From: a virus
Reading direction: 5' to 3' (one strand)
Length of the DNA: 29,342 nt
Virus record (IMG/VR): IMGVR_UViG_3300027734_000242
Span: 1-29,342 of that record
Shown: positions 10,987 to 27,208 of the stretch, one piece after another
Layout of the letters: each line of letters begins with the position of its first letter
How positions within the stretch are numbered: position 1 is the stretch's first letter
Program-made: the position numbers and the translations under genes
The notes under the pieces: generated by a model
Databases searched by the model: none
Told to the model about the DNA's origin: nothing
The model's input: only the letters and a program-made list of their open reading frames with translations

Positions 10987-11313
10987 ATGATCACACCAAT
11001 CGTAACTGATGCGGTAGTAATAGGCAGTTCCAAAAATCCAGGACAATTTAATTTAAATGGTGATGGAACTGTCTCAAATATACTCAATGTAAATACATTA
11101 GCCGTAAATGGAAAAGTTGGTATCAATAGTGCGAATGGTACAATAAATTATGGTGTCGCTGGTCAAGTATTAACTTCAAGTGGCGCAAATGCTGCTCCCA
11201 TTTGGTCTAATATTACTGGAGGAACTGGAGGAAGTTCTACTGGTGCAGCTACTAGTTCAAGTGGAGTTTCAACAGGCAAAACAATCGCAATGGCAATTGT
11301 GTTTGGAGGATAA
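10987..11313 (+). CDS. Small fibre-module protein 'MITPIVTDA', copy A
   Basis: 108 aa. The first 70 residues (MITPIVTDAVVIGSSKNPGQ, then NVNTLAVNGKVGINSANGTI, then GQVLTSSGANAAPIW) are closely matched by the 129-aa protein at 19520. The C-terminus is a Ser/Gly/Thr-rich linker ending in a hydrophobic IAMAIVFGG. Its phrasing is typical of collar or fibre segments ('YGxxGQVLTSxGANxxPxW'). It opens fibre module A. The exact role is unknown; a connector between fibre shaft and tip proteins is inferred from context. Confidence 0.65.
   Translation: MITPIVTDAVVIGSSKNPGQFNLNGDGTVSNILNVNTLAVNGKVGINSANGTINYGVAGQVLTSSGANAAPIWSNITGGTGGSSTGAATSSSGVSTGKTIAMAIVFGG
11105..11139 (+). repeat. 35-bp exact direct repeat, left copy
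   Basis: These 35 bases, inside the copy A small fibre gene, recur without mismatch at 19638-19672 inside its paralogue, 8533 bases downstream in the same orientation. Flanking bases diverge but remain similar. Confidence 0.92.
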
Positions 11314-11316
11314 TTA

Positions 11317-11682
11317 ATGGCCGCACCAAATATTGTTAACGTAGCAACAATTACAGCTAAGTCTGTTGGAAGAGCCGTAACAACAAGTTTTGCTACTATA
11401 CTAACTAATTTAGCAGGTTCTGGTAAAGTATTGAAAATTAATTCATTTATTATATCTAATATTACAACTTCTACTAGTGCAGATATTTCTGCTCGGGTTT
11501 ATAAATCTGGAGTAACAACAGCATATTATATTGCTTTTACGATCACAGTTCCTGGTAGTTCTACGCTTGTATTAATTTCTAAAGATACAAGCATATACTT
11601 AGAGGAGGGTGATTACATTGAATTTTTATCTAGTAGCAATAGTACATTAAGTGGTTTTTGTAGTTATGAGGAGATAAGTTAA
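11317..11682 (+). CDS. Small beta-rich virion protein, copy A
   Basis: 121 aa, strong GGAGGA ribosome binding site. The sequence alternates beta strands, with GSGKVLKINSFIISNIT, then VPGSSTLVLISKDTSIYLEE and GDYIEFLSS. The paralogue at 19920 has IKLNSIIVSGTSSS, IPPKATLVVLSKDTGVYLGT and a similar end. The family looks like small jelly-roll proteins found next to phage fibres. No enzyme motif is visible. The stop overlaps the start of the next gene (TAATG). Confidence 0.62.
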   Translation: MAAPNIVNVATITAKSVGRAVTTSFATILTNLAGSGKVLKINSFIISNITTSTSADISARVYKSGVTTAYYIAFTITVPGSSTLVLISKDTSIYLEEGDYIEFLSSSNSTLSGFCSYEEIS

Positions 11683-12260
11683 TGTCTGGCAGTACGTTTA
11701 TTGAAAACAATAGTATGATAGGCTTAGACAGGACTAGTAATAAAGTAACAGACAAAGTTTTTAGTACAGAAACGTCACGAATAGTTAAAGGAAAAACTTT
11801 AACTGTTCCCGGTGCTCCAACACCGTATTATGTTCCCGGTGCCCTCGGTTTTCCTAATACTTTTTTTAGAGAAAGTTCTATTGGTACAACAGGTTATTAT
11901 TATCTGTACTATAGTCCTCCAATTAGTAATGGAGGAAGTCCAATAACCTCATATAATTATCAAATATTACATTATAGAGATTCATCAGTATTACTTTCTG
12001 GATCTTTTGGTGTTAATAACTACTATTTTTTTAGCCTTGATGTTGGATATTCATTGATTGCTACTATAACTGCAACAAATGCAATTGGAACTGGTCCAGC
12101 ATTTATAACCAACCCAATTTGTGGTGTAGGCGGTCAATATTTGCCAGGCACAGGTATATATTGTAGTGGTTGCAATACTCAATATATACAGAATAATGGA
12201 AACTGTGATTATTATGTGTATAATGTTTATGCCGATGGTTTTTGTTGCTCCGCCCCTTAA
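11682..12260 (+). CDS. Fibre tip-like protein with fibronectin III-like domain and Cys-rich end
   Basis: 192 aa, start overlaps the previous stop and is preceded by GAGGAG. An N-terminal motif NNSMIGLD matches the starts of three other tip proteins here (17945, 20273, 21343). Residues about 70-145 fit a fibronectin type III strand pattern (PPISNGGSPITSYNYQI, then YSLIATITATNAIGTGPAFI). The last 50 residues hold six cysteines (PIC, YCSGC, GNC, FCC), suggesting disulfides or a metal site in a receptor-binding tip. It holds the tip-1 position of module A, right before the enzyme cassette. Function is inferred from context. Confidence 0.6.
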   Translation: MSGSTFIENNSMIGLDRTSNKVTDKVFSTETSRIVKGKTLTVPGAPTPYYVPGALGFPNTFFRESSIGTTGYYYLYYSPPISNGGSPITSYNYQILHYRDSSVLLSGSFGVNNYYFFSLDVGYSLIATITATNAIGTGPAFITNPICGVGGQYLPGTGIYCSGCNTQYIQNNGNCDYYVYNVYADGFCCSAP

Positions 12261-12275
12261 TAGCGAAGAATATAA

Positions 12276-13745
12276 ATGAAATATTATACACACCCATATC
12301 TATTAGCAAATTATCCTAAAATGGTTGAATTTAGGCGCGCCATCAAACTAAATGTATTTACTAAAAAAGATTTATATTCGGTAGACAGAATGGGCATTAT
12401 AGGTAATGATCCAAACATTATAGTTATCCAACCTGTATTAAACTATGATTCTTCGCGCAAATATGATTTTGATATCCTAATAGAAAGCAGAGCAAAAGAA
12501 TTAATTGAATTAAGCAATACAAGAAACATACCAATTTATTTAATGTGGAGTGGTGGAATAGATAGCACTAGTGTCTATTGCGCTATAAAAAAACATTTAA
12601 CAGATAATAAAAAATTAGTTATATTATGTAATAAAAATTCAATTAAAGAATATCCTGAATTATATAACGAAATGATATCAGAACATGAAATTATTGACCT
12701 GGGTATTGTCGAATTTGGATTAACTATTAACAAATTGGCAAACATCGACAGTATATTTGTTACGGGTGAACTAGGTGATCAACTTTTTATGTCTAGACCT
12801 CCTAGAAAAAAAAGTAGTTTAACATCAATTGATTGGATCAACGATCCTTGGGAAGCAGTACTGGACCCAAATGCATCACAATATCATAGTGTTGTTGATG
12901 AATATGTTAAAAATTTTCCCATTCCAATTATTACAGCAAGAGATTTTGGCAGAAGTATAAAATTTAACTTAGAATATCAGCGCGCTCAACTTAGAATGAG
13001 TTTATTTTATAAAAATTTAGTATTAAATAAAAATTTATTTCATTTTTATGATACTATAGATTTTAATTATTATTCTTTAAGTTTATCTTTAGATGAATTG
13101 GGTATTGATTATAGGACTCATACAATCAAGTTACCTCTTAAACAATTAATTTTGGACTATACTGTTGACCAACACTATTATGAAAATAAACCTAAAGTTA
13201 AAAGAATTATGGCATTAAATCCAATTCAAATAACAAATACTATAGATGAAAATTGGAATAAATCATTAATTACCTTATCGTACACACCAAACTCAAATAA
13301 TGAATATATAGTAGATCAACCAGCAATCTATCACTATCAAGATGCATCTAAAAGTCAAGAGTTGGACTTTAATACAGGAATAGTTGATTGGAAAATGTAT
13401 CGTTTTGATGAAAGAAAATATATAAATTTTACAACAGAAGAAATAATAAAAGAGAATAATTATATTGTTGTCTGTGGTTTTGCGGAGAATAAACCAAAAA
13501 CATTAGAAAACTTTTTTATAATTGCCGGAACATTTTCTGAGTATAATATAAAGTCTGATAATATTAGTATATTGGTTTTACAGAAATTATTTTTATCCAA
13601 AACAGTAAAATTAATTGGCAACCACTTTCAAGGAGAATATGATCAAGTTATTAAAAAAGAATTTGAACAACAAATTAGTATAATAGATTGCAATGAATAT
13701 GAAGTGATTGATCCGAAAAATTATAATTTTACAAATTGGAGGTAA
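12276..13745 (+). CDS. Asparagine synthetase-like PP-loop ATP pyrophosphatase
   Basis: 489 aa. The signature PP-loop is MWSGGIDSTSV (SGGIDST at 92-98), which binds ATP pyrophosphate in adenylating amidotransferases, and GELGDQLF (164-171) matches the GDELF region of AsnB-type synthetases. The N-terminal class II glutaminase domain of true AsnB (Cys2) is absent; the first 80 residues are unrelated. A class I glutamine amidotransferase is encoded in the same cassette (16931) and could supply ammonia. The last 110 residues are unrecognised. It could activate a carboxylate for amide formation; the substrate is unknown. First gene of the cassette; the upstream sequence has only a weak ribosome binding site (gcgaagaa). 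Confidence 0.75.
   Translation: MKYYTHPYLLANYPKMVEFRRAIKLNVFTKKDLYSVDRMGIIGNDPNIIVIQPVLNYDSSRKYDFDILIESRAKELIELSNTRNIPIYLMWSGGIDSTSVYCAIKKHLTDNKKLVILCNKNSIKEYPELYNEMISEHEIIDLGIVEFGLTINKLANIDSIFVTGELGDQLFMSRPPRKKSSLTSIDWINDPWEAVLDPNASQYHSVVDEYVKNFPIPIITARDFGRSIKFNLEYQRAQLRMSLFYKNLVLNKNLFHFYDTIDFNYYSLSLSLDELGIDYRTHTIKLPLKQLILDYTVDQHYYENKPKVKRIMALNPIQITNTIDENWNKSLITLSYTPNSNNEYIVDQPAIYHYQDASKSQELDFNTGIVDWKMYRFDERKYINFTTEEIIKENNYIVVCGFAENKPKTLENFFIIAGTFSEYNIKSDNISILVLQKLFLSKTVKLIGNHFQGEYDQVIKKEFEQQISIIDCNEYEVIDPKNYNFTNWR
13738..13742 (+). promoter_or_regulatory. Ribosome binding site GGAGG that fixes the start of the binding-protein gene
   Basis: GGAGG lies inside the last codons of the PP-loop gene, 5 bases before ATG 13748. 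It favours that ATG over the in-frame TTG at 13736, since the TTG codon overlaps the GGAGG site itself. Confidence 0.75.
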
Positions 13746-13747
13746 CG

Positions 13748-14701
13748 ATGTTTAAAAAATTATTACTATTATTGACAATATTTTGTACTCAAGCATATGC
13801 TTGGGAACCAACTAAATCAATTAATGTTATGATTGGTTTTGCTCCAGGATCAGGAAATGAAATTAGTTTTCGTGGAGTCAGTAGTATATTAGAAAAAAAT
13901 AATCCAAAAGTTAAATTTATTATTGAAAATAAACCTGGTGCAGATGGTTTAATTGCAATAAATGACTTTATGAAAAAACCTGCTGATGGTTATCATGTTT
14001 ATATTCCAAGTCATCAAGGTATATGGCTAACAGGTGAATTTTTCTATAAAAATCTTGTAAATTTTACAGTAAACGATTTTGAATACGTGGTTACTATTGC
14101 AAAAAGTCCACTAGCCGTTATTGCGTATGGTGAAAGTTCAGTTAATACTGTTCCTGATTTACTACAAAGAATTAAAACTACAAATAAACCTATAACATTT
14201 GCTGCTGGTAGTGGTTCACATAGACTTGCTTTTGAATATATGAAAAGCAAAGTTGAAATGAGTGATTTGGTTAAAACTGTAGGTTATAAAGGACCAGCAC
14301 AAGCAGCACAAGATGTTGCTGGCGGTCATGTAGAATTTGGTATTATACCAATTGCGGTAGCAGCACCATTGCTTTCAAGTGGAAAAATTAAAATCTTAGG
14401 TTTATGTAGTGAAAAAACTTTATCTAATATTGATGCACCACTAATGAATAAATGGATTCCAGGCATGAATGTTTATGCTGCTTGGGGCATTGTATTACCT
14501 AAAGACACACCGTCAGAAATAGTCAACTGGTATGTTGACAACTTTGCAAATGTAATAAGATCATCTGAAAGTAAAAAGTTTTTTGATCAAAACTATATGT
14601 TTACTGATGAACGCGAACTGGCACCGATTGGATTTAAAAATAATATAGTAAAATTAAGAGAACAATGGATTCCAATTTTGCAAAATTTAAAGATTGAATA
14701 A
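13748..14701 (+). CDS. Tripartite tricarboxylate transporter (TctC/Bug)-type periplasmic binding protein
   Basis: 317 aa from the ATG chosen by the GGAGG site. Residues 1-18 form a clear Sec signal peptide (FKKLLLLLTIF, cleavage after AYA). The mature part follows the Bug/TctC pattern: W-E-P-T-K-S-I-N-V start, GFAPGSGNE (30-38), IENKPGADGLIAINDF, KPADGYHV, TFAAGSGS, GYKGPAQAAQDVAGGHVEFG, LGLCSEK, and WGIVLPKDTPSEIV. The fold binds carboxylates or related small molecules in the periplasm and feeds TctAB membrane proteins. No TctA or TctB is encoded here, so it would need host partners or act as a sensor or scavenger. At the position usually 'GGxTD' it has GSGNE, so ligand preference may differ. 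This is unusual cargo for a T4-like phage. Confidence 0.88.
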   Translation: MFKKLLLLLTIFCTQAYAWEPTKSINVMIGFAPGSGNEISFRGVSSILEKNNPKVKFIIENKPGADGLIAINDFMKKPADGYHVYIPSHQGIWLTGEFFYKNLVNFTVNDFEYVVTIAKSPLAVIAYGESSVNTVPDLLQRIKTTNKPITFAAGSGSHRLAFEYMKSKVEMSDLVKTVGYKGPAQAAQDVAGGHVEFGIIPIAVAAPLLSSGKIKILGLCSEKTLSNIDAPLMNKWIPGMNVYAAWGIVLPKDTPSEIVNWYVDNFANVIRSSESKKFFDQNYMFTDERELAPIGFKNNIVKLREQWIPILQNLKIE

Positions 14702-14704
14702 CGC

Positions 14705-14860
14705 ATGTTCATTAAATTTATCAAGACTATATACAATAAAATCAAACAATTTTGGCATTGGTCAAATAATTTTGAAGATGATTATTCTTTTGCACTAAGG
14801 ATGGAACGTGAATATGAAAGTATGCGATTACACAGAAAGCAATCAAGAGTTACTAAATAA
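14705..14860 (+). CDS. Small basic protein, 51 aa, unknown
   Basis: An open frame begins 3 bases after the binding-protein stop: MFIKFIKTIYNKIKQFWHWS followed by an acidic then strongly basic tail ending SRVTK. The N-terminus could form a basic amphipathic helix. It fills the only gap in the cassette and overlaps the next gene by 47 bases in another frame. No good ribosome binding site is visible, and I do not recognise the family. It is reported because the gap would otherwise be empty in a compact genome. Confidence 0.42.
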   Translation: MFIKFIKTIYNKIKQFWHWSNNFEDDYSFALRMEREYESMRLHRKQSRVTK

Positions 14861-15368
14861 TTATTTTTCAAATCATTGGACATCCCGTGGAGTAGCGGGT
14901 ATTTCATCACCAAAAACTATAGCAACTTTAATTAAAGAAGACGAATGGTTGTTGGATGTAGGTTGTGGAACTAATCCATTTAAACGGTTACTTAAAAATG
15001 TTATAGGCATAGATCCTGCATTTAACGAAGCAGATTATAAATGCACTATAGAAGAATATGAACCCGATAGACTATTTGATGTTGCCACGTGTTTAGGTAG
15101 TATAAATTTTGGTACCGAAGATATCATCGAAAGACAAATTGATAAGGTTGTTAGTTGTTTGAAACCACAATCTAGAATATATTGGAGATTAAATCCTGGA
15201 AGATTTGATCACAATAGTACAGAATGTTTAAAAGTTCCTTTTTATCCATGGACATTTGAACAGTTAAATGTATATGCAAATAAACATAATTTTATTCAAG
15301 TCGCTCAGGCTATGGACGAACACGTTGTGAGGCCAAGATTATATGCAGAATGGTATAGAACTTCCTAA
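14814..15368 (+). CDS. Class I SAM-dependent methyltransferase
   Basis: 184 aa from ATG 14814; a GTG at 14808 would add two residues. AAGGATGGA lies upstream. Motif I is LLDVGCGTNPF (about 46-56), followed by NVIGIDPAF (motif II acidic region), LFDVATCLGSINFG (motif IV region) and YWRLNPGRFDH. It resembles small standalone methyltransferases that act on sugars or small molecules. Its 3' end overlaps the sulfotransferase-like gene by 26 bases, so the two are probably translationally coupled. The substrate is unknown. Confidence 0.75.
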   Translation: MKVCDYTESNQELLNNYFSNHWTSRGVAGISSPKTIATLIKEDEWLLDVGCGTNPFKRLLKNVIGIDPAFNEADYKCTIEEYEPDRLFDVATCLGSINFGTEDIIERQIDKVVSCLKPQSRIYWRLNPGRFDHNSTECLKVPFYPWTFEQLNVYANKHNFIQVAQAMDEHVVRPRLYAEWYRTS

Positions 15369-15960
15369 AAGAATATTTTTCACAGGCGCACCAGGTAGCC
15401 GTTGGAGTGGTATAGCACAAACTATCGAGAATCTTAGCGGATTCAATACTAGTGATCGTAATGATAACAGAGTGCATTACAGAAAAGGTATTGGTAGAGG
15501 AGGCAATATTGGTAAAATGCATGGACACAATGGATCATATTTTGGCCACGAAATGGAATTTGAGGCCATATTAGATGCAGATTACTTAGATCAAGCATGG
15601 AGTAATTTGAGTGGTACACGGATAATAAAAAGTCATGAATGGGCTTATAAAATAGAAGAAATAAAAAATAAGTTTCCTGATGATTGGATTATGTTAGTTT
15701 ATAGACCAGACATGGTTAGTTATTCTTGGTGGCATGAACTCGGTGGATTTAAAATTTCATATCCCAAATATACTTGGTATAAAGATAGTCCTACTATGTT
15801 AGGTGAGATAATTAAAATCAATTCACATATATTAGAGTCTGCTTATAAATACAATTTGACATGGAATTATTTAACAGAAGATTGGATTCAAGATAATTTT
15901 GGTCAGACTACAGAAATAATAACCAAAAGTTCAGACGTTCTAGTTACAATATTAAAATAA
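15343..15960 (+). CDS. Sulfotransferase-like protein
   Basis: 205 aa. The N-terminal IFFTGAPGSRWSGIAQ (residues 11-26) is a P-loop-like 5'-phosphosulfate binding loop, and MLVYRPDMVSYSWWHELGGF fits the 3'-phosphate motif with Arg and Ser. PAPS-dependent sulfotransferases share this arrangement, and related short versions occur in aquatic T4-like phages. It would transfer sulfate from PAPS to a glycan or small molecule. A P-loop kinase of another type is the alternative. Starts inside the methyltransferase gene. Confidence 0.65.
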   Translation: MQNGIELPKRIFFTGAPGSRWSGIAQTIENLSGFNTSDRNDNRVHYRKGIGRGGNIGKMHGHNGSYFGHEMEFEAILDADYLDQAWSNLSGTRIIKSHEWAYKIEEIKNKFPDDWIMLVYRPDMVSYSWWHELGGFKISYPKYTWYKDSPTMLGEIIKINSHILESAYKYNLTWNYLTEDWIQDNFGQTTEIITKSSDVLVTILK

Positions 15961-15963
15961 ATA
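15956..15963 (+). promoter_or_regulatory. Possible late promoter AATAAATA
   Basis: AATAAATA, one base from TATAAATA, overlaps the sulfotransferase-like stop and precedes ATG 15978, with AAAGAGAAATA as ribosome binding region. In such AT-rich DNA it may be chance. Confidence 0.35.
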
Positions 15964-15977
15964 TTCAAAGAGAAATA

Positions 15978-16178
15978 ATGATTTCATCATTTTTAGTTGA
16001 TAAAAAAACGTATTACAGTAGACTGCAAATTTGTACATCATGTGATAAATTTGAAAAAGTTTTGCATAGATGTTCTGAGTGTGGTTGTATTATGCCATTG
16101 AAGGCTAAAATTGCAAATTCTACTTGTCCATTAAATAAATGGCAACAAGTAGATAACAGTTTAATAAAAGATCAATAA
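15978..16178 (+). CDS. Small Cys-rich zinc-ribbon-like protein
   Basis: 66 aa with a Cys pattern of CTSC, then CSECGC, then TCP ending in NKW. The spacing and the C-terminal 'K..IANSTCPLNKW' match a small DUF6171-like family frequent in phages and proposed to bind zinc. Function is unknown. It sits between the sulfotransferase-like and ferritin-like genes and could be an accessory or regulatory protein. Confidence 0.65.
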   Translation: MISSFLVDKKTYYSRLQICTSCDKFEKVLHRCSECGCIMPLKAKIANSTCPLNKWQQVDNSLIKDQ

Positions 16179-16188
16179 GGAATAGACA

Positions 16189-16965
16189 ATGAAATATGAT
16201 ATGGTAGATATAGAAAAAATGGCAGAAGACAATGATTCTGTAAATCATCAAATTAAACAATTTGTTGACAAAATAGAATCTGATAACGAAACTTTATTTG
16301 CAGTTTCAGAAAAACAAGTTAAAAACTTTTATATGACACATTCAAATACAGATTTGGTAAAGCATTTTACCAGTCGTATGGTTAATGAGCGTATGAATAT
16401 GGTAGAGTTGGCCAAACAAATTGCTAATTCTGATGCGGGTATGGATCCAAAAGAATTACAATTATTAAGTAAACAAGCATTGGATGAGGCTAATCATTTT
16501 AGAATGGTAAAAGATGTTGTTGAACATTTAAATGGTGGTCCAATCAACATTAAAGAGTTTGTTGAATATGATTCGGCAAATAATTCTAGTTCTAAAGGCG
16601 CTAAACTTATCCAAAAATATAATTGTGACAATGACGAAATGGCAATGGCATTATATCAGTTTATTTGCGAAGGTCGTGCAGCACGAAATTGGTTTATGAT
16701 GTCAACTTGTGTTACAGATCCATTTATTGCAAATACTTACGCAAGAATTGCACGAGATGAAAAATTTCACTCAAAAATTGGTAGACGTAAATTAATGCAA
16801 CTTTGTGATACTCCAGAAAAACAAGAACGTGCAATGAAAATTGCTAATGCAATGCGTATTGATCTATATGAAATTAATTGCAGTGGATCAGGAGAGATGG
16901 AAGGCACTCGTGAATTAATCGAAAAAGCATATGGTAAAGCAGAGCAGTTTGAAAATAGCAATTAG
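16189..16965 (+). CDS. Ferritin-like di-iron protein
   Basis: 257 aa, start supported by AAGGAATAGACAATG. The helical core holds a full di-iron ligand set: Glu67 (VNERMNM), E100-x-x-H103 (DEANHFRM), Glu161 (CEGRAARNW) and E191-x-x-H194 (RDEKFHSKIG). The E, ExxH, E, ExxH order and roughly 30-residue spacing match oxygen-activating carboxylate-bridged enzymes (PaaA, aldehyde deformylating oxygenase, ribonucleotide reductase R2 relatives) and rubrerythrin. Length and lack of a rubredoxin tail favour an oxidase or oxygenase. It is not a phage NrdB: the sequence is too short and lacks the radical-tyrosine context. Its 3' end overlaps the amidotransferase gene, so they are probably translated together. 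Confidence 0.75.
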   Translation: MKYDMVDIEKMAEDNDSVNHQIKQFVDKIESDNETLFAVSEKQVKNFYMTHSNTDLVKHFTSRMVNERMNMVELAKQIANSDAGMDPKELQLLSKQALDEANHFRMVKDVVEHLNGGPINIKEFVEYDSANNSSSKGAKLIQKYNCDNDEMAMALYQFICEGRAARNWFMMSTCVTDPFIANTYARIARDEKFHSKIGRRKLMQLCDTPEKQERAMKIANAMRIDLYEINCSGSGEMEGTRELIEKAYGKAEQFENSN

Positions 16966-17488
16966 TCAGCGAGAAGAAACTATTGGAAAATTTAATTATG
17001 ATTGCTTGTCACAAAATTGGTATAGATTTTTAAATAAACATCAGATTATTCCTATACCTAACGTGGATGATAACAAAGAATATGATTTTGATGTTTTAAT
17101 TTTAAGTGGTGGCAACTGTAGTTTATCTAGGTTTCACACAGAATTAAAGTTATATAATCATGCTGTGGATAAAAATTTGCCTATAATTGGTATTTGTCAT
17201 GGTGCTTTTTTTATCGCAGAAATAAATGGTTCAATATGTGCAGATGTTAAAGGACATAAAGATACAGAACACACGATTAATATGGAAGATAAAGAATTTA
17301 TAGTAAATAGTTCACATAATAGCAAAATTACAAAACTTGGTAAAAATTTTAATATTATAGCTACAGACAAAGAATACAATATAGAAGCATTTAAACACGA
17401 TAAAAAATCAATTTGGGGTATGTTGTGGCATCCAGAGAATATGAAAAATGCTGTATTACCTTCAGAACTACACTCATTACTGATGTAA
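16931..17488 (+). CDS. Class I glutamine amidotransferase (peptidase C26-like)
   Basis: 185 aa from ATG 16931; a TTG at 16949 giving KIAISQRE is a plausible alternative because the family starts near that point. Nucleophile elbow GICHGAF carries Cys89, and WHPE supplies His167 and Glu169, completing the triad. LILSGGN (56-62) is the usual oxyanion-side strand. This domain releases ammonia from glutamine for a partner synthetase, or hydrolyses gamma-glutamyl amides. The PP-loop protein at 12276 lacks a glutaminase, so the two may form a split amidating enzyme. Overlaps the ferritin-like gene by 35 bases. Confidence 0.85.
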   Translation: MVKQSSLKIAISQREETIGKFNYDCLSQNWYRFLNKHQIIPIPNVDDNKEYDFDVLILSGGNCSLSRFHTELKLYNHAVDKNLPIIGICHGAFFIAEINGSICADVKGHKDTEHTINMEDKEFIVNSSHNSKITKLGKNFNIIATDKEYNIEAFKHDKKSIWGMLWHPENMKNAVLPSELHSLLM

Positions 17489-17497
17489 GGATACAAA

Positions 17498-17944
17498 ATG
17501 CCGGAAGAAATTAGTTTATCAGAATTGGAGATTCAGTTTCCATATGATCCTGAGACAGATACAATCAATCAAAAACTACCAGATCCAATAGTTCTTACTG
17601 GAGATGTGATTGAAATTACCGAATGGAATGTTTTTTCTGTTAGATCAAAAATATTAGGATATAAAACCTTACATTTTGTAGGCAAAATTAATGTAAATAA
17701 TCAAATAATGGACTATTACAGTGGTCCAGTAAAAACATACGATCCAAAAAATGATTGGTGGATACAAGATGAACAATTTGTTTGTCCAGGGTGTAAGAGA
17801 ATATATTATAGACTTGTGGGTTTACGAAATATACATTCTATGATTAATAAAAATATTATGCCTAACATGGATAATCTTGATATTACACTTGAAGAAAATT
17901 TTTATGTTTATAAAAAAACGGAAGATTCACCGGTATATCTATAA
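17498..17944 (+). CDS. Unknown protein with CPGC motif, 148 aa
   Basis: AAGGATACAAAATG supports the start. The sequence has SRSKI-like and beta-rich segments, then DDWWIQDE-style aromatics (NDWWIQDEQFVCPGCKRIYY) with a single CPGC pair, and ends KKTEDSPVYL. Two cysteines alone could complete a metal site only in a dimer or with His29-type ligands elsewhere. I do not recognise the family. It is the last gene before the second tip protein and abuts it with no gap (TAA then ATG), so it could belong to the fibre module rather than to the enzyme cassette. Confidence 0.55.
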   Translation: MPEEISLSELEIQFPYDPETDTINQKLPDPIVLTGDVIEITEWNVFSVRSKILGYKTLHFVGKINVNNQIMDYYSGPVKTYDPKNDWWIQDEQFVCPGCKRIYYRLVGLRNIHSMINKNIMPNMDNLDITLEENFYVYKKTEDSPVYL

Positions 17945-19015
17945 ATGAGAAAAAATAATAGTTTTATAGGTAAAGAGGCAAGCGTTACGACAACAAAAGC
18001 GTCGGGTATTTCTAGTAATATCAATAAATTTAACTATACAAAAGGTGGAGTCTGGCCTTATACATTATTAAATAATGTACCTCCTTTGGTTGAATATTTG
18101 GTTGTTGGTGGAGGTGGTGGTGCAGGATCTACTGCTTCTGGTGGTGGTGGTGCAGGTGGATTTAGAACTGGATTTTATCAAATTACACCAGCAACGAGAA
18201 CGAATAGTTTTAATGTTATTGTTGGTGCCGGTGGTGCCTCCACATCAATATCTTTCGCCATGGTTGGAAACAACGGTAGAGATTCTAGATTTGCAAGTAT
18301 ACATTCAGTTGGTGGTGGCTCAGGATGGGGATATGGTTCTCTCATCTCTATACCTGTTCAGGCATTTGTTGATCATGGAGGCACCGGAGGTTCTGGTGGC
18401 GGAGGAATGCTAAATGGGCCCGGTTCCGTTTTTACCGCAATGAATGGCGGATCAGGAATTGCTGGGCAAGGGTATGATGGAGGAAAGTCAGGATTTTCCT
18501 CTACCAGCGTGTATCCGTATAGAGGCGCCGGAGGTGGTGGAGGCGGTGCCGGAGGAAAAGGAGGTGATTATATTGAACCTTACGGTAATCTGCCGAGCAG
18601 TGGAGGCCCGTATATGCCCGCTGGAGGACTTTGCGCAACATCAGATATAACAGGAGTATTAACTGAGTACGCTGGAGGTGGTGGAGGAGGAGGATATATT
18701 GGATCAGGATATAACGGATATAACGGCGGCAACCCTGGCGGCGCGGGCGCGGGTAGGGGCTCGTCTAGCGCCTACAGTGCTATAAATCAAAACGCCTCTA
18801 TTCCAAATAGAGGTAGCGGCGGTGGCGGTAGCGCCTATTACGGTGGCGGTTCTGGATCTAGCGGCGTAGTAATTTTAGCATATCCTACAGCATTCGCTGC
18901 GATAACGACAATTACAAATTTAACATATTCTGTGTCAACAACATCACGTCCTGGTTACTATGTCTACACATTTACAGCACATTCAGGAAGTAGCGGAACT
19001 ATAGCATGGTCATAA
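17945..19015 (+). CDS. Glycine-rich adhesin, tail-fibre tip (module A, tip 2)
   Basis: 356 aa. Starts RKNNSFIGKEA, matching the N-terminal motif of the other tip proteins. From about residue 52 it shows VEYLVVGGGGGAG and long Gly-rich runs (GGGGAGG, GGTGGSGGGG, GGGGGGAGGKGG) spaced by short variable loops, ending SSGVVILAYPTAF and a C-terminal YSVSTTSRPGYYVYTFTAHS. This is the architecture of glycine-rich receptor-binding proteins such as gp38-type adhesins, where Gly motifs form a polyglycine II core and loops bind host receptors. A paralogue of the C-terminal part is at 26582. The assembly chaperone gene follows at once. Base composition from 18360 on is far more GC-rich than the neighbours. 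Confidence 0.8.
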   Translation: MRKNNSFIGKEASVTTTKASGISSNINKFNYTKGGVWPYTLLNNVPPLVEYLVVGGGGGAGSTASGGGGAGGFRTGFYQITPATRTNSFNVIVGAGGASTSISFAMVGNNGRDSRFASIHSVGGGSGWGYGSLISIPVQAFVDHGGTGGSGGGGMLNGPGSVFTAMNGGSGIAGQGYDGGKSGFSSTSVYPYRGAGGGGGGAGGKGGDYIEPYGNLPSSGGPYMPAGGLCATSDITGVLTEYAGGGGGGGYIGSGYNGYNGGNPGGAGAGRGSSSAYSAINQNASIPNRGSGGGGSAYYGGGSGSSGVVILAYPTAFAAITTITNLTYSVSTTSRPGYYVYTFTAHSGSSGTIAWS

Positions 19016-19018
19016 ATA
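19011..19018 (+). promoter_or_regulatory. Possible late promoter CATAAATA
   Basis: CATAAATA overlaps the adhesin stop codon and lies 19 bases before the chaperone ATG, with AAGGAAAAATAA between. The same octamer stands at 19481 and 29332. Confidence 0.4.
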
Positions 19019-19029
19019 AGGAAAAATAA

Positions 19030-19479
19030 ATGTTGTATAGTTATAAAAAACAATATCCAGAAGAGTTGCCATTTAGAATAGAATTGCCTAACGGTTTTAC
19101 TAGAACTGATCCTTCATCATTTACTGAAGAGGAACTTCTATCTGCTGGATATGTTAAAGTGCCACCAAAACCAATATTTGATGAATCTAGGCAAAAATTA
19201 ATTTGGACAGATGAATATTGGGTAATAATCGATAAGACTGAAGAAGAAAAGATCGATCTTATACAAGAAGAGTGGAATAAAGTAAGAGAAAAAAGAAATC
19301 AATTAATAAAAGATGTTGAGTGGAGATACGACAGATATTTTAGAATAGAAAGATTGGGCGGAAATCAAATAGATGACATTAACAAATTAGATTATTATGT
19401 TCGTGCTTTGGCAGATTTACCACAAGCACAAGAAAATCCATTCAAATTAATATGGCCAAAATATGATGCGCCAGATTAA
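19030..19479 (+). CDS. Tail-fibre assembly chaperone-like protein, copy A
   Basis: 149 aa. The C-terminal half fits the phage tail assembly chaperone pattern (Phage_tail_APC-like): EEWNKVREKRNQLIKDVEW, then RIERLGGNQID, LADLPQAQENPF and IWPKY. The N-terminal half is variable. A paralogue at 22435 has the same C-terminal layout (LNQIDNIDELD, LANLPESQQDPF, IWPKYNDP). Such proteins help fold or attach the adhesin encoded next to them. Position directly after the glycine-rich tip supports that. Confidence 0.78.
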   Translation: MLYSYKKQYPEELPFRIELPNGFTRTDPSSFTEEELLSAGYVKVPPKPIFDESRQKLIWTDEYWVIIDKTEEEKIDLIQEEWNKVREKRNQLIKDVEWRYDRYFRIERLGGNQIDDINKLDYYVRALADLPQAQENPFKLIWPKYDAPD

Positions 19480-19480
19480 T

Positions 19481-19488
19481 CATAAATA
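19481..19488 (+). promoter_or_regulatory. Late promoter-like CATAAATA before module B
   Basis: CATAAATATATAA begins 2 bases after the chaperone stop and 39 bases before ATG 19520, with ATAGGAAAATTT between. The whole gap resembles the one at 22901-22935 after the second chaperone, suggesting the promoter was copied with the module. Confidence 0.5.
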
Positions 19489-19519
19489 TATAATAATTTA
19501 TAGGAAAATTTAATCTAAA

Positions 19520-19909
19520 ATGATAACACCAATCGTAACTGATGCTATAACAATAGGTAGTTTCAAAAATCCAGGTCAACTGAATTTGATTGGTGATGGA
19601 ACTGTATCAAATGTTTTAAACATTAATACATTATCAATAAATGGAAAAGTTGGTATCAATAGTGCGAATGGTGTAATAAATTATGGCAATTCTGGGCAAG
19701 TTTTAACTTCAACTGGTGCAAACTCTGTTCCAAATTGGGCAAATGCTGCTACTACATATCAATTACCTGTTGCTAGTGCGTCTACATTAGGTGGAATAAA
19801 AGTTGGATCAGGATTAAGTATGAATGTAGAAACAAGTGTACTCAGCAGTACTAGTGTGGGTGGTGTTACACTAGCAGCAGTAATTATAAATGCAATGGTC
19901 TATGGTTAA
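19520..19909 (+). CDS. Small fibre-module protein 'MITPIVTDA', copy B
   Basis: 129 aa, paralogue of 10987. The N-terminal 70 residues match almost position by position (MITPIVTDAITIG, KNPGQLNL, NGKVGINSANGVINYG, GQVLTSTGAN). After the shared part it carries YQLPVASASTLGGIKVGSGL, a widespread phage fibre motif absent from copy A, which has a Ser/Gly linker there instead. It opens module B. Confidence 0.68.
   Translation: MITPIVTDAITIGSFKNPGQLNLIGDGTVSNVLNINTLSINGKVGINSANGVINYGNSGQVLTSTGANSVPNWANAATTYQLPVASASTLGGIKVGSGLSMNVETSVLSSTSVGGVTLAAVIINAMVYG
19638..19672 (+). repeat. 35-bp exact direct repeat, right copy
   Basis: Identical to 11105-11139, same orientation. The pair brackets the end of module A and the whole enzyme cassette. 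Confidence 0.92.
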
Positions 19910-19919
19910 GGAATAAAAG

Positions 19920-20270
19920 ATGCCCAATTTAACTACTACAACTTCAATAGAACCAAAAACATTAACAATTACAGTACCAACATCTGATACTTCTACTGGT
20001 TTATCTGTTGGTGCAAATCAAGTAATTAAATTAAACAGTATTATTGTAAGTGGCACATCTAGTTCAGTAGATGTTACTGTATATGTGGTAGTCAACTCTG
20101 TGATTGGTTATCTTGCAAATGCTATAACTATTCCACCAAAAGCAACACTTGTGGTATTATCAAAAGATACTGGCGTTTATTTAGGAACAGGTAATACTTT
20201 AAACATATTTGCTGGAGGTAGTGGTTCATCAGCAACGATATCATATGAATTAATTACAACATCTGCGTAA
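19920..20270 (+). CDS. Small beta-rich virion protein, copy B
   Basis: 116 aa, AAGGAATAAAAGATG start. Paralogue of 11317: IKLNSIIVSGTSSS, IPPKATLVVLSKDTGVYLGT and a beta C-terminus. Same position in the module, between the MITPIVTDA protein and the first tip. No enzymatic motif. Confidence 0.65.
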   Translation: MPNLTTTTSIEPKTLTITVPTSDTSTGLSVGANQVIKLNSIIVSGTSSSVDVTVYVVVNSVIGYLANAITIPPKATLVVLSKDTGVYLGTGNTLNIFAGGSGSSATISYELITTSA

Positions 20271-20272
20271 TT

Positions 20273-21322
20273 ATGTTTAATAAAGCACAAAGTTCTTTTA
20301 GTGGCGGCATTGTTGGTGAATCGGGAAATAACGGATTTCAATTTGATGATTACATTGATGAATTAGCTGGAAAAAACGCGTATTCTGTATATCCCAACTA
20401 TCAGTCTTTTATTGGTTATAGACCAGGAATCTACAACTTAAAATCACAATATAATTTCAAAAGTCTTAAACATTGGGCTAAAAAACCATATCTTGTAGAT
20501 TTAGGAGAAACATCTTCTACTCAAGATACAACCGGTTGGACTGGACAAATATTCCCATATAGTTTAGTGGGTATTCACAATTACGGTGGACCAATTATTT
20601 CAGCAAATATATTAAAACCAGGTGATTTTATATTGTGGTTAACAACGTCATACTCTACAAGTTATTATCCATTTGGTTCTAGTCCGCGTATAGGACTAGA
20701 TAATAATACTTCTATGAGTTCGATTATGACTCTCACAGCATCAAGTCCACCAATGCAAGCAAATTATTTTATTGTTCCAAATGTAGCAAATACTGATCAG
20801 TATAGATATATAACTCATCCGGGCGTAACGCCTAATGCAATAACTTTTTCTATAAGATCTGCAGACCATCAAGTGGGTTTCTTTTATCTTATAATTAGGG
20901 ATCTTCCTGCAAACTTTACATTTCAGTCTTTAGTTGGACCAACTAATTTTTCGTCGGCCTCCACCGGTCGACCTGCAGGTGTTGCTACTAGTACTACTAA
21001 TTTTTCTACTTATGCTACTAGACTAAGATTTGGAATGGGGTCACAGAGAATACTTTCATCCGGGTATGATCCTGAGTTTCAAATTTATATGAATTCGGGA
21101 ATACCTCAACGATATTATGTGACAACTTATGGTCTCGCAACTAGAAGCAGTTATTTATCTGTTCATTGGGATATAATTAATCCGCAAACATATTCAAATT
21201 CATATACAGGTTCTCAACTCGATTATAATACACTGCACGAAACAAGTTTTCGTAGAGCATTTCAAAATTTTTGGTTAGATGGAACATATTATGAGTTTGA
21301 CCTTGTTTTTAACGAATATTAA
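20273..21322 (+). CDS. Putative fibre tip protein, module B tip 1
   Basis: 349 aa, start 2 bases after the previous stop with no obvious ribosome binding site, so probably coupled. N-terminal FSGGIVGESGN resembles NNSMIGLD at 11682 and VNGGIIGNS at 21343. The rest is Ser/Thr/Tyr/aromatic-rich and beta-like (ILKPGDFILWLTTSYST, HQVGFFYLIIRDLPANFTF), with a counterpart LQPNDVIYWIMTDAYV in the next gene, so the two are probably diverged paralogues. No known enzyme motif. Receptor binding is inferred from position. Confidence 0.58.
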   Translation: MFNKAQSSFSGGIVGESGNNGFQFDDYIDELAGKNAYSVYPNYQSFIGYRPGIYNLKSQYNFKSLKHWAKKPYLVDLGETSSTQDTTGWTGQIFPYSLVGIHNYGGPIISANILKPGDFILWLTTSYSTSYYPFGSSPRIGLDNNTSMSSIMTLTASSPPMQANYFIVPNVANTDQYRYITHPGVTPNAITFSIRSADHQVGFFYLIIRDLPANFTFQSLVGPTNFSSASTGRPAGVATSTTNFSTYATRLRFGMGSQRILSSGYDPEFQIYMNSGIPQRYYVTTYGLATRSSYLSVHWDIINPQTYSNSYTGSQLDYNTLHETSFRRAFQNFWLDGTYYEFDLVFNEY

Positions 21323-21328
21323 TAAATA
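21321..21328 (+). promoter_or_regulatory. Possible late promoter AATAAATA
   Basis: AATAAATA overlaps the tip-1 stop codon, 22 bases before ATG 21343. One mismatch from consensus in AT-rich DNA. Confidence 0.35.
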
Positions 21329-21342
21329 TACAAGATAATAAT

Positions 21343-22407
21343 ATGAGAGTAAACGGAGGAATAATTGGCAATTCTTTAGTGCCAAATACAATAGATAGAA
21401 GTAATCAAAGTGGTTTATTTACATTAGATAATAGTCTGCGTGGATATGGCGGTGCGTTAGGGGATTCGACTTTAAAACTGGTGGGTTTTGCAGAATTTAA
21501 TACTACTGGTGCTGGTAGTTATTTAGGTTCAAGTAGTCAAGTAGTAAATGGTTTACAACCTAATGATGTAATCTACTGGATAATGACAGATGCATATGTA
21601 GGTAGTACATCAACAACAACTGCTGCTACAAATTTAAATAATGCATACATTGGTTGGTTTGGTTATGCTGACAAATATCCCTCCTATGATGCTAGAATTT
21701 ATACTGCTGGAAAAGAGTTGGCATTTTATGATATTAGACGAAATAGCGATTCATCTAGAGCAATTCTTTCTTCAGATTTTAGTAGTGCTATATTGTCAAC
21801 ATATAGATCATATATTGTTACAGCATATAGTATTGTAACAGAGCCCGGTAATTATGCAATTTCAACAACCACAAGTGCTTTACCAAGTGGAAGTTTAACA
21901 TATTTTAAGCACACATATGCATTTGTATTTAGAAATGTTGATATTAATAGATTAACTACATATAGAGCAAATTATGGTGTAGGTAATCCATATACTCCAT
22001 ATACAAGAGTGTTGTTAGGCAATTCATTACAACTTTCAACCTCACCTTATGCAGGTTATTATCAATCGGATGATAATTTTAGAAGTCTTACTCTGCCGTC
22101 AGGTAATGATAAAGATACATTAATTGGTGTTGTAATTTCAACATATGACATAGTGAGTGAATGGCCAGATTATCTAAATTCTAAAAATAGAGGGTATTAT
22201 GATCGTAAAAATTTAGGTGGTTCGGGTTATTTTTCAATGTTAACTACTGATAAATTTACCAATACTGGTCTAACAACACACGCTTTCATTGGTACATCCT
22301 CAGATATGCAACTTACAACATATGTGCCAGGAACAGCATCAACATACTATCCAACTAATTCTAATTTGTATATAAGTGCTTATAGTGTTATGGTTCCCAG
22401 TCTCTAA
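21343..22407 (+). CDS. Putative fibre tip protein, module B tip 2
   Basis: 354 aa. N-terminal MRVNGGIIGNSLVPNTI carries the shared tip motif. The body is beta-rich with LQPNDVIYWIMTD (about 75), AYIGWFGYADKYPS and a C-terminal ISAYSVMVPSL. It is not glycine-rich, unlike the tip-2 protein of module A, so the tip seems to have been exchanged while the N-terminus and the downstream chaperone were kept. Similar in length and weakly in sequence to the preceding gene. Confidence 0.58.
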   Translation: MRVNGGIIGNSLVPNTIDRSNQSGLFTLDNSLRGYGGALGDSTLKLVGFAEFNTTGAGSYLGSSSQVVNGLQPNDVIYWIMTDAYVGSTSTTTAATNLNNAYIGWFGYADKYPSYDARIYTAGKELAFYDIRRNSDSSRAILSSDFSSAILSTYRSYIVTAYSIVTEPGNYAISTTTSALPSGSLTYFKHTYAFVFRNVDINRLTTYRANYGVGNPYTPYTRVLLGNSLQLSTSPYAGYYQSDDNFRSLTLPSGNDKDTLIGVVISTYDIVSEWPDYLNSKNRGYYDRKNLGGSGYFSMLTTDKFTNTGLTTHAFIGTSSDMQLTTYVPGTASTYYPTNSNLYISAYSVMVPSL

Positions 22408-22434
22408 TACGCATTATCATAAAGGTATATTATT

Positions 22435-22905
22435 ATGCAATTACTCAACAGAAAACTTTACTCATATAAAGGCGGTAATCCAAAAGTCTTGCCTGAACTT
22501 ATACCAACAGAAAGTGGTAATTTTTTAACAAACTCTATAAATTTATCGGATAAAGTATTAGAAGAAAATGGATATATTAGAGTTGAAGACAAACCAGAAA
22601 CAAATAATAGATTCTCTTATGTGACTTGGGAGAACGGATGGGTAATAAAAGATATACCTGATGAAGAAAAGAGTAGTATGATAGAAAGTGAATGGGAAAA
22701 AATACGAATGGAAAGAGATTTTTTCATTAGACAAAATACTTGGAGATACGAAAGAATTGCTAGAAGAGAACGATTAGGTTTAAATCAAATTGATAATATT
22801 GACGAATTAGACGTTTATATTCAAGAGTTGGCAAATTTACCCGAATCACAACAAGATCCATTTAATATTATATGGCCCAAATATAATGATCCTGAAAATA
22901 AATAA
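22435..22905 (+). CDS. Tail-fibre assembly chaperone-like protein, copy B
   Basis: 156 aa, AAAGGTATATTATTATG start. The C-terminal Phage_tail_APC-like pattern is WEKIRMERDFFIRQNTWRYE, RRERLGLNQIDNIDELD, LANLPESQQDPF, IWPKYNDP. The N-terminal half differs more from copy A than the C-terminal half, as expected if that part meets a different tip protein. Confidence 0.78.
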   Translation: MQLLNRKLYSYKGGNPKVLPELIPTESGNFLTNSINLSDKVLEENGYIRVEDKPETNNRFSYVTWENGWVIKDIPDEEKSSMIESEWEKIRMERDFFIRQNTWRYERIARRERLGLNQIDNIDELDVYIQELANLPESQQDPFNIIWPKYNDPENK

Positions 22906-22916
22906 ATATATAAATT
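22901..22916 (+). promoter_or_regulatory. Late promoter-like AATAAATATATAAATT before gp13
   Basis: Two overlapping near-matches to TATAAATA (AATAAATA at 22901 and TATAAATT at 22909) lie at the end of the chaperone gene and 20-35 bases before gp13. ATAGGAAATTTTAAAC supplies the ribosome binding site. It would start neck gene transcription. Confidence 0.5.
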
Positions 22917-22935
22917 AATATAGGAAATTTTAAAC

Positions 22936-23709
22936 ATGTCAAACCCAACTACAAGATCGCAGTTCAAAGACTACTGTCTACGCAGACTTGGGTTTCCTGT
23001 CATTGAAATAAACGTAGATGATGACCAAATTGAAGATAGAATCGATGATGCATTACAATATTGGCAAGATTATCATTTTGATGGGTTACAAAAAGTCTAT
23101 TACATTAAAGCGATAAGTCAAACAGATGTTAATAACAAATATTTAGATTTGACTCAGGCAAAAGATAGAGCTAATAATACTTTAGATATTGTTGGTGTGA
23201 CCAGGATATTTCCTGTCACAGATTCGCAAGCATCTATAAGTATGTTTGATCTACGATATCAGTTGCGCCTAAACGAATTATACGACTTCACTTCTGCATC
23301 ATATATTAATTATACTATGACGATGCAACATTTAAGGTCATTGGAGATATTGTTTTCTGGTGAAGTGCCAATTCGTTTTCAACGACATATGCAGAGATTG
23401 TATATCGATTGGGCATGGGGAAATTATGAAGCACCAGTCGGAACAGTTGTTATTGCAGAGTGTTATGCAGCCATCGATCCTGCAGCATACACAAAAGTAT
23501 GGAATGATCGTTGGTTAAAAGAATATGCAACTGCATTAATCAAAAGAACTTGGGGAAATAATATGAAAAAATTCTCAGGTCTACAATTGCCTGGTGGTGT
23601 AACACTCAATGGAGATAAAGTTTTTCAAGAGGCAACGGAAGAAATTGCAAAACTTGAAGAACAAATGCAAACTAATTATGGTGCACCGTTAGAATTTTTT
23701 ATGAATTAA
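22936..23709 (+). CDS. gp13: Neck protein gp13
   Basis: 257 aa, recognisable as T4 gp13 family: RSQFKDYCLRRLGFPVIEIN, DDDQIEDRIDDALQYWQDYH, then FDGLQKVYYIKAI, and PAAYTKVWNDRWLKEYATAL with LIKRTWGNN. gp13 and gp14 form the neck that closes the filled head and receives the tail. T4 gp13 is 309 aa; shorter forms are usual in aquatic T4-like phages. The gene order 13-14-15 is canonical. Confidence 0.93.
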   Translation: MSNPTTRSQFKDYCLRRLGFPVIEINVDDDQIEDRIDDALQYWQDYHFDGLQKVYYIKAISQTDVNNKYLDLTQAKDRANNTLDIVGVTRIFPVTDSQASISMFDLRYQLRLNELYDFTSASYINYTMTMQHLRSLEILFSGEVPIRFQRHMQRLYIDWAWGNYEAPVGTVVIAECYAAIDPAAYTKVWNDRWLKEYATALIKRTWGNNMKKFSGLQLPGGVTLNGDKVFQEATEEIAKLEEQMQTNYGAPLEFFMN

Positions 23710-23710
23710 A

Positions 23711-24880
23711 ATGGCAACTTCATCATATTTCAACAACTATGGTGCTCACTCAGAGCAAAGACTAATAGAAGATATTATTGTAGAATCTATTAAGATAATG
23801 GGATTCGACGCATTTTATCTTCCCAACGATAATGATGCAGCAAGAGATTTATTATTTGGTGAAGATCCAGTAAAAAAATTTAGAAGTGCATTTCCATTAG
23901 AATTATATCTTTCAAACTCAACTGAGTATATGGGTGAAAAAGAATTCTTTTCTAAATTTGGTCTTGAAATTAAAAACAATGTTAATGTAATTCTATCGAA
24001 ACGATCATTTTCACAAAGAGTTCCACAGAATGCTTTTACTAGACCTAGGGAAGGCGATCTGATTTATGTACCGTTTATGAATGGCACAGGTGAATTATAT
24101 GAAATTAAATTTACAAATCAAACAAAAGATTTCTTTATGTTGGGTAGAAAAGTTCCATATTTTTATGAATTAGAATTGGAGAAATTCAAGTATTCACAAG
24201 AAGTCATTGAAACCGGGGTTGATATTATTGATGAAGTCTTAACTCAATCTGCATATACAATAACATTAAAAGTAATAAAAGATTTGAAACAAGTTTACGC
24301 CTCTACTAATTGGTCTTCAGGATTATATGACAATAAAAACATAGTTATTGATCCTATAAATAATACTTTTTCAATTGAATTAGGTAATTTAAGAATAGGA
24401 GACACAATTCTATATAAAACGACATATACTTCAGATGAAGTGTCAGCAAAAATAGTTAATATAGCAACATTCGGTATTACTAATTATAATATAACAACAG
24501 ATTCTGATATTATAGGTTTGTATGTGTTAACGGAATTTACTATTTTACCTAGGAATGTGGCGAATTATGGTTATGGAACATACGAAATTAAAGAAACTGT
24601 ATATCAGTCTACGGATGGAACATACAATAATGCCACATGTGAGGCGACACTACAGAGTTGGACACCATTAACTGGAGAAATAACAATTACAAATATAAAT
24701 GGTGAATTTGCATCAAACACCTATGTGTACGGTGTAACAAGCGGTGCATATCGTTATGTTACAGACTATGATGCGATGGAAACGGCACCAAAAAATGAAA
24801 ACTTCGACAATAAATTTATCGAAGATGCTGCCAATCAGATCATCAATACGACAGAAATCAATCCTTTTGGTGATATTTAA
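23711..24880 (+). CDS. gp14: Neck protein gp14, enlarged
   Basis: 389 aa. The N-terminal part is typical gp14 (SEQRLIEDIIVESIKIMGFD, YLPNDN, GEDPVKKFRSAFPLELYLSN, EKEFFSKFGLEIKNNVNVIL) and the end NPFGDI matches the family. T4 gp14 is 256 aa, so about 130 residues are extra, mostly a beta-rich interior segment near residues 195-350 with an ETVYQSTDGTYN / ITNINGEFASNT fold. The stop overlaps the gp15 start (TAATG). Confidence 0.9.
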   Translation: MATSSYFNNYGAHSEQRLIEDIIVESIKIMGFDAFYLPNDNDAARDLLFGEDPVKKFRSAFPLELYLSNSTEYMGEKEFFSKFGLEIKNNVNVILSKRSFSQRVPQNAFTRPREGDLIYVPFMNGTGELYEIKFTNQTKDFFMLGRKVPYFYELELEKFKYSQEVIETGVDIIDEVLTQSAYTITLKVIKDLKQVYASTNWSSGLYDNKNIVIDPINNTFSIELGNLRIGDTILYKTTYTSDEVSAKIVNIATFGITNYNITTDSDIIGLYVLTEFTILPRNVANYGYGTYEIKETVYQSTDGTYNNATCEATLQSWTPLTGEITITNINGEFASNTYVYGVTSGAYRYVTDYDAMETAPKNENFDNKFIEDAANQIINTTEINPFGDI

Positions 24881-25743: not shown

Positions 25744-25748
25744 TTAAA

Positions 25749-26582: not shown

Positions 26583-27208
26583 TGAGTGCAATAATGGCCA
26601 TGGCTGTTAGTAATAATGTTCCAGTATCACCTATAGCCGTAGCCGCTAATCCGCCGCCATCTATTGAAGTTTTATTAGTTGGTGGCGGGGGGTACGGCCA
26701 AGGGTTTAGCGGGTCATTTGGCCAGCCCGGCGGCGGTGGTGGCATTGTTTACAATACGGCTTTCTCTATTACCATTGGCACTACTTATTCTAGTAGTATT
26801 GGCGTAACCGGCGCAACAACCGCAACTAGCTCTACTTTTAGCACCTATACCGCTGGAGGTGGTGGTGGCAGCAGCGCTGGATTAGCAAGTTCAGGAACTG
26901 GCGCGACAACCGTATTGAATGGTCAAAATGCGGGCACTGGAAATAATTACGCAAGCTCTATTTCTGGGTCATCAGTAACTTATGCTTATTCTGGTGCCGG
27001 AACCCCTGGTAGCGGTGGTTTCGGATCAACACCAAATCCGGGAGCATCACCGCCCAGTCCTGGCCAAAATGGCGTATTAATCATTGCCTATCCCAGCACT
27101 TATGACGCAGCCGTTACTGTTACTGGAACATACACCGTAAGCACCACAGCCAGAACCGGATACCGCGTATATACGTTTACCAGCGGCTCTGGATCAATTA
27201 AGTGGTAA
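26582..27208 (+). CDS. Glycine-rich adhesin, short paralogue
   Basis: 208 aa, start overlaps the previous stop (TAATG). After a short leader it shows PPSIEVLLVGGGGYGQ, Gly-rich runs (GQPGGGGGIVY, TAGGGGGSS), then GVLIIAYPSTYDAAVTVTG and YTVSTTARTGYRVYTFTSGS. The N-terminal VEYLVVGGGG and C-terminal VVILAYP plus YTVSTT..GYRVYTFT layout equals that of the 356-aa adhesin at 17945. GC content is higher than in its neighbours. It probably tips the fibre encoded just upstream. Confidence 0.78.
   Translation: MSAIMAMAVSNNVPVSPIAVAANPPPSIEVLLVGGGGYGQGFSGSFGQPGGGGGIVYNTAFSITIGTTYSSSIGVTGATTATSSTFSTYTAGGGGGSSAGLASSGTGATTVLNGQNAGTGNNYASSISGSSVTYAYSGAGTPGSGGFGSTPNPGASPPSPGQNGVLIIAYPSTYDAAVTVTGTYTVSTTARTGYRVYTFTSGSGSIKW

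Follow-up and report, generated by a model that had tools for sequence, protein, structure and literature searches.

The DNA that we analyzed is the whole of IMG/VR record IMGVR_UViG_3300027734_000242, a linear stretch of 29,342 bases (the window) from an uncultivated T4-like water phage. Its right end holds T4-like genes for neck and packaging (gp13, gp14, gp15, and the small and large terminase subunits), and its left edge falls within fibre genes; the nearest named gp13 proteins, those of Caulobacter phage Cr30 and Methylophilales phage Melnitz, are only 48% identical. Upstream of gp13 lie two side-by-side copies of a five-gene module, each running from a small shaft (gene 1) through a small beta protein (gene 2), tip 1, and tip 2 to a chaperone (gene 5), and copy A is split by a 5.7-kb cassette of enzyme genes between its two tips (Table 1). 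An ORF check placed the ten module genes and the cassette where an initial annotation, made from the sequence letters, had put them.

Table 1. Positions and assignments of the module, cassette, and anchor genes in the window.
Feature	Position	Strand	Assignment and evidence
Copy A	10987-11313, 11317-11682, 11682-12260, [12276-17944], 17945-19015, 19030-19479	+	ORFs; brackets mark the cassette
Gene 1A	10987..11313	+	Putative mini fibre shaft; N-terminal anchor MITPIVTDA, C-terminal connector ..STGKTIAMAIVFGG
Gene 2A	11317..11682	+	Predicted jelly-roll adaptor, widespread family; HMM in 90 loci; AF2 pLDDT 91.5
Tip 1A	11682..12260	+	By position; ..NNSMIG.. N-terminal motif; 27 nonsynonymous vs 7 synonymous codons against L083
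PP-loop (asparagine-synthetase-like) protein (g11)	12276..13745	+	SGGIDST motif
TctC periplasmic binding protein	13748..14701	+	Signal peptide; PF03401 E 4e-28
SAM methyltransferase-like (g13)	14808..15368	+	Weak PF13489
P-loop sulfotransferase/kinase-like (g14)	15343..15960	+	By motif only; no Pfam match
DUF6171 small zinc-ribbon-like protein	15978..16178	+	PF19668 8.5e-8; phrog_13558
Putative ferritin-like diiron protein (g16)	16189..16965	+	E67, ExxH 100-103, E161, ExxH 191-194
Class I glutamine amidotransferase, GATase (g17)	16949..17488	+	PF00117 2e-15; ORF opens at ATG 16931
Protein with no family match	17498..17944	+	No match in other g16 loci
Tip 2A, glycine-rich adhesin	17945..19015	+	PF21722 6.8e-12; phrog_2295; 47 nonsynonymous vs 17 synonymous codons against L083
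Gene 5A	19030..19479	+	Putative fibre assembly chaperone; PF16778 3.8e-6; 42% aa to 5B
Spacer A	19480..19519	+	Paralogous to spacer B
Copy B	19520-19909, 19920-20270, 20273-21322, 21343-22407, 22435-22905	+	ORFs
Gene 1B	19520..19909	+	Putative mini fibre shaft; paralogue of gene 1A
Gene 2B	19920..20270	+	Predicted jelly-roll adaptor, fast-evolving; 34% to 2A
Tip 1B	20273..21322	+	28 nonsynonymous vs 6 synonymous codons against L083
Tip 2B	21343..22407	+	N-terminus MRVNGGIIG..SGLFTL; 51 nonsynonymous vs 10 synonymous codons against L083
Gene 5B	22435..22905	+	Putative fibre assembly chaperone; PF16778 3.5e-6; AF2 pLDDT 93.1
Spacer B	22906..22935	+	Precedes gp13; paralogous to spacer A
gp13, gp14, gp15, terminase small, terminase large	22936..29320	+	Constant anchor block; order kept across related loci

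Misassembly is ruled out by three independent contigs (L083, L084, and L087) that overlap the locus collinearly: L083 is 96.6% identical and collinear from 11083 to 24498, including the cassette and both copies minus the first 96 bases of gene 1A, and the other two cover the right part. The anchor block is itself interrupted at 25749-27208, between gp15 and the small terminase, by an extra pair of variable fibre-like genes, and the second protein of this pair has a C-terminal end in common with tip 2A (53% over 70 aa). In another locus (L035:10830-11543), an ORF between gp13 and gp14 looks by eye like a GIY-YIG homing endonuclease. Farther to the left in the window are a fibre with collagen-like GFQGxQG repeats, whose C-terminal domain matches long tail fibre distal subunits (499-2667), and a second enzyme pair amid fibre genes, consisting of a phrog_1644 match and a glycosyltransferase-methyltransferase fusion (2686-4508). 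A tRNA-Ser with anticodon act, called by ARAGORN at 7525-7608, falls within the reading frame of 5221-7719 and is probably spurious; an Rfam search for RNA elements gave no match, and the late-promoter motif TATAAATA, sought in the spacers, is not enriched in the window (5 occurrences vs 7 expected).

Homology between the two copies

Between the two copies, identity peaks at both ends and is lowest in the middle of the module. Comparison by blastp aligns gene 1A with 1B at 77% over 75 aa (E 1e-38), gene 5A with 5B over 148 aa (E 6e-37), and gene 2A with 2B over 119 aa (E 1.6e-9), and finds no full-length similarity between the tips of the two copies. At the DNA level, positions 10984-11211 match 19517-19744 at 82% over 228 bases without a gap, opening 3 bases 5' of both gene 1 ATGs, and positions 19219-19513 match 22639-22933 at 70%, closing about 3 bases 5' of the ATGs of gene 1B and gp13. 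Because the second match ends just before those two starts, it takes in the spacer after each chaperone, and none of 550 control pairs of upstream stretches align as well as these spacers do. Homology borders that fall at the gene 1 ATGs and at the gp13 ATG fit the tandem duplication of a single unit. Synonymous identity is 49/69 for gene 1, vs 31 expected from codon usage (reached in 0 of 100,000 simulations), and 38/57 for gene 5, vs 29.5 expected (P 0.011); for gene 2 it is 16/40 vs 18 expected, which is the level of codon-usage chance. The pairwise alignments that the initial annotation had proposed as a check come out in its favor; of the three genes that it had called clear paralogues, genes 1 and 5 are related at the DNA level and gene 2 only distantly.

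One might suppose that two unrelated fibre modules merely look alike through a gene order that is general among such modules, as indeed it is; the DNA matches with their coinciding borders, and a synonymous identity in gene 1 far beyond codon-usage chance, largely refute this idea and leave it very improbable. On these comparisons, an origin of the frame (gene 1, gene 5, and spacer) by duplication is well supported.

The history of the module middles appears less simple. In the best gene 2 tree, copies 2A and 2B are not sisters and 2B sits on a branch of length 1.48; a tree test does not reject them as a pair (AU p 0.47). The gene 5 copies are joined in their tree at a weakly supported node (60/62), and 5B is as close to a protein of another locus, L132 (42%), as it is to 5A. 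No relatives of genes 1B and 5B were found among the named phages of the collection, and none of the related loci examined holds an intermediate with a single module between the same flanks. Since the gene 2 copies are no more than distant paralogues and the tips show no relationship, the middles would have either diverged far or been replaced, as the sequences suggest; with the gene 2 pair not shown to be closest relatives and the gene 5 node weak, an exchange of the middles with other phages is conceivable. The segmental duplication claimed initially is supported by the paralogous borders and spacers, and the gene 2 and gene 5 trees qualify it. Import of the entire second module from another phage, through homologous recombination at conserved ends, would likewise account for gene 2 copies that are not sisters, for identity that is greatest at both ends and least in the middle, and for the equal closeness of 5B to L132 and 5A. 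We nevertheless consider it unlikely, as the full gene 1 N-terminus is confined to this lineage in the scans made, where it is shared at the high DNA identity given above, and the spacers are paralogous as well.

The module in other phages and the diversification of its tips

A gene 2 profile gives 113 matches across 90 loci; the loci were partly collected through a gene 2 search, so this count measures spread and not frequency. In many phage contigs the usual order is shaft, gene 2, tip, sometimes a second tip, and chaperone. The shafts of relatives end in (S/T)xGKAIAMAIVFG(G) or a similar hydrophobic stretch, a connector that gene 1A has in common with them and that is degenerate in gene 1B; since relatives' shafts with this ending precede gene 2, gene 1 is probably a mini-shaft. 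All parts of the module are thus present here (a shaft with a hydrophobic, glycine-ended connector, then gene 2, tip, and chaperone), with tip 2 and the chaperone of copy A coming only after the cassette. Relatives' tips carry an NGGxIG...SGVW-like N-terminal motif, found in 41/74 of tips 1 and 11/14 of tips 2 vs 12% of ORFs over 140 aa. Tandem modules occur at three other loci (L135, L098, and L164), and the two gene 2 copies of L135 group together with support of 100/95. The uniqueness implied by the initial annotation does not hold, as both module and tandem copies are widespread in aquatic phages and a region of fibres and auxiliary metabolic genes (AMGs) has already been described (PMC7029224). 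At one further locus (L117:3441-7989), a module with the order gene 2, tip, tip, chaperone is preceded by PP-loop genes and by genes that are radical SAM-like in sequence.

Gene 2 is predicted to form a jelly-roll sandwich. Its viral Foldseek matches include cyanophage proteins named virion structural protein, and its PDB fold matches include subunits of the Ena endospore appendages as well as turret or cement proteins of viruses (Z about 9), a likeness of fold only. Genes 5A and 5B barely pass the cut-off of PF16778 (Phage_tail_APC), at 27.1 and 27.2 bits vs 26.6; the profile matches 2KZ6 (E 1.7e-13), and gene 5 weakly matches the two-domain fold of the gp25-type fibre chaperone of Pam3 (Z 4.1, rmsd 6.9 over 126 residues).

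Against L083, the four tips are the fastest-changing genes of the locus (90-96% identical), and most of their codon changes alter the amino acid (Table 1). Identity is 99.4-100% for gene 1B, genes 2A and 2B, the two chaperones, and gp13, and 96-100% for the cassette genes, and the partial gene 1A of L083 differs by an 18-base in-frame deletion and 3 mismatches. Tip 2A passes the gathering score of PF21722 (Gly_rich_2) with 46.3 bits vs 24.3, and its changes cluster between conserved glycine runs, the same pattern as in the glycine-rich domain of Pam3 gp24 (PMC9608196). By phmmer, tip genes g10, g23, and g24 have no homologues outside this lineage, and a PDB sequence search with tip 2A, g11, and g16 gave nothing useful. 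Fast tips on a near-identical scaffold are a signature of receptor contact, which supports such contact, and presumably binding, for all four tips; the earlier reading of two sets of host-contact tips fits this pattern of diversifying tips and a conserved scaffold. It is highly unlikely that one copy is decaying: gene 2B lies on a long branch and the gene 1B connector is degenerate, but all ten genes are open, and 1B, 2B, and 5B are 99.4-100% identical in both L083 and L084.

The enzyme cassette and the region before gp13

The cassette genes lie on the same strand as the structural genes with short gaps, and are thus likely to be co-transcribed with them. Homologues of the PP-loop protein g11 occur directly upstream of the L117 fibre module (E 2e-21) and in L180; it has no named relative in the phage collection. 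TctC clears the PF03401 gathering score (99.1 bits vs 27) and is 72-73% identical in amino acids in L174-L176; we replaced its TTG start at 13736 by the ATG at 13748, given a GGAGGT at 13738-13743. A pattern scan of genome contigs for a cellular TctC source, which reaches close relatives only, found no match. DUF6171 homologues lie directly before gp13 in L054 and L079. In g16, both E..ExxH motifs are invariant in 20 relatives, as in ferritin-like diiron proteins, and Pfam matches to DUF455 and PaaA_PaaC fall below the cut-off. The GATase g17 probably starts at TTG 16949, judging by homologues, and does not reach the NCBIfam cut-off of NF045546 (gamma-glutamyl-CDP-amidate hydrolase; 87 bits vs 250).

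At least 228 relatives of g16 occur among viral contigs, and no match at E 1e-5 among 50,697 named phage records. In 39 non-redundant large-phage g16 loci, with fetched flanks of up to 8 kb, g16 is accompanied by the g17 GATase in 34, the g13 methyltransferase in 30, and the g14 P-loop protein in 27, as well as by a TctA permease (12/39, confirmed by Pfam), TctC (9/39), and g11 (4/39). Within those flanks, blastp detects neither gene 2 nor the chaperone at any of these 39 loci, and in two large viruses gene 2 lies distant from the g16 cluster. The trio of TctC, g13, and g14 recurs at 66-73% identity, in a different order, in 335-kb and 200-kb contigs. The cassette is, for the most part, a recurrent viral gene cluster, not a random set, that is found elsewhere without the module. 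That it serves carboxylate uptake together with amidation or methylation of a metabolite is a guess, and a doubtful one.

Gene 2 lies upstream of gp13 in only 3 of the 41 gp13 loci with at least 5 kb of upstream sequence, which indicates that this region is hypervariable next to a constant gp13 to gp17. At this site relatives have genes for 2OG-Fe(II) oxygenases, sulfotransferases, APS kinases, FkbM methyltransferases, glycosyltransferases, a carbamoyltransferase, a heme oxygenase, and others. The proposal that the site receives cargo is thereby borne out, in that relatives hold differing enzyme cassettes before a constant block; the single-module relatives also anticipated were not encountered with the same flanks. 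Could the placement of the cassette be functional, its enzymes modifying the tips or the host surface through glycan, sulfate, or amide chemistry? The frequency of sulfotransferase, methyltransferase, glycosyltransferase, and 2OG-oxygenase genes here in relatives, and the PP-loop homologue next to the L117 module, would favor this idea, but at all 39 loci the g16-g17 cluster lacks a gene 2 or chaperone match within the fetched 8-kb flanks, and it includes transporter parts, so we regard the idea as improbable.

Origin of the locus and known systems

We consider it probable that the locus encodes two short fibres of the same build, derived by tandem duplication of a unit reaching from gene 1 through the chaperone and its spacer. 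Each fibre, perhaps a trimer, would consist of the gene 1 mini-shaft, the gene 2 jelly-roll adaptor, and exchangeable receptor-binding tips, assembled with a dedicated chaperone, as would be consistent with chaperones fitting their own tips. The conserved gene 1 N-terminus would fix both fibres at the same site of the virion, and with this common base the two might either share an attachment site or compete for it. The middles would then have diverged or been replaced, giving two alternative tip sets, and the recurrent metabolic cluster would have come to sit between tips 1A and 2A. The locus neatly illustrates one way for aquatic T4-like phages to acquire a second set of tips, namely to duplicate an entire short-fibre unit, retain base and chaperone, and leave the tips to diverge. 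It also defines a very common, apparently unnamed fibre module, whose gene 2 may mark host-contact tips in metagenomes.

The arrangement is genuine and, for the most part, of an ordinary kind; its duplication is well resolved, and its insertion is uncommon. The module and tandem copies of it are widespread, and the hypervariable site is of a known kind. Pelagimyophages and cyanomyophages, according to the part of PMC7029224 consulted, have a hypervariable "host recognition cluster" that lies between the genes for baseplate and neck and holds several fibres and unrelated enzymes, and the window likewise has a variable fibre and enzyme region directly before conserved neck genes (such a cluster is also defined by VrlC at its other boundary); that part of the account describes neither a duplicated unit nor a g16-type cluster inside a tip pair. 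The hyperplastic region g15-g18 of cyanomyoviruses (Millard 2009, as cited in PMC2984593) similarly places host-like metabolic genes in a T4-like structural block, whereas here the insertion precedes gp13 and interrupts a fibre module. Synechococcus phage S-SKS1 (HQ633071) has gene 2, tip, tip, and a PF16778-type chaperone in the same order, but a long shaft protein of 1,727 aa precedes gene 2, and its tips are not separated by a cassette. Myocyanophage Pam3 (gp24/gp25; PMC9608196) also has a short fibre with a beta-sandwich, a glycine-rich tip, and a dedicated chaperone, though there the shaft and the TNF-like and Gly-rich domains are all encoded by one gene. Virions with more than one set of receptor-binding proteins, as the genes suggest here, are described for Ackermannviridae (PMC8432352) and DT57C (PMC4728585), whose branched or multiple fibres are, as described, of another build.

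New here is the make-up of the 5.7-kb insert, most of which is a recurrent viral cluster, so that cargo before gp13 can be of this kind. We tentatively entertain, without favoring it, the possibility that this cluster of large uncultivated phages (the diiron protein, glutamine amidotransferase, methyltransferase, P-loop protein, TctC, and often TctA) is mobile, passes from one phage to another unrelated one, and became inserted here within a duplicated receptor-binding module, which would tie new metabolic cargo to a second set of tips. TctA has been reported from SUP05 viral contigs, as a protein domain only (PMC6359870). Tandem duplicated g16 genes are present at L182:7230-8780, and likewise in L181, L183-L185, L190, and L192.
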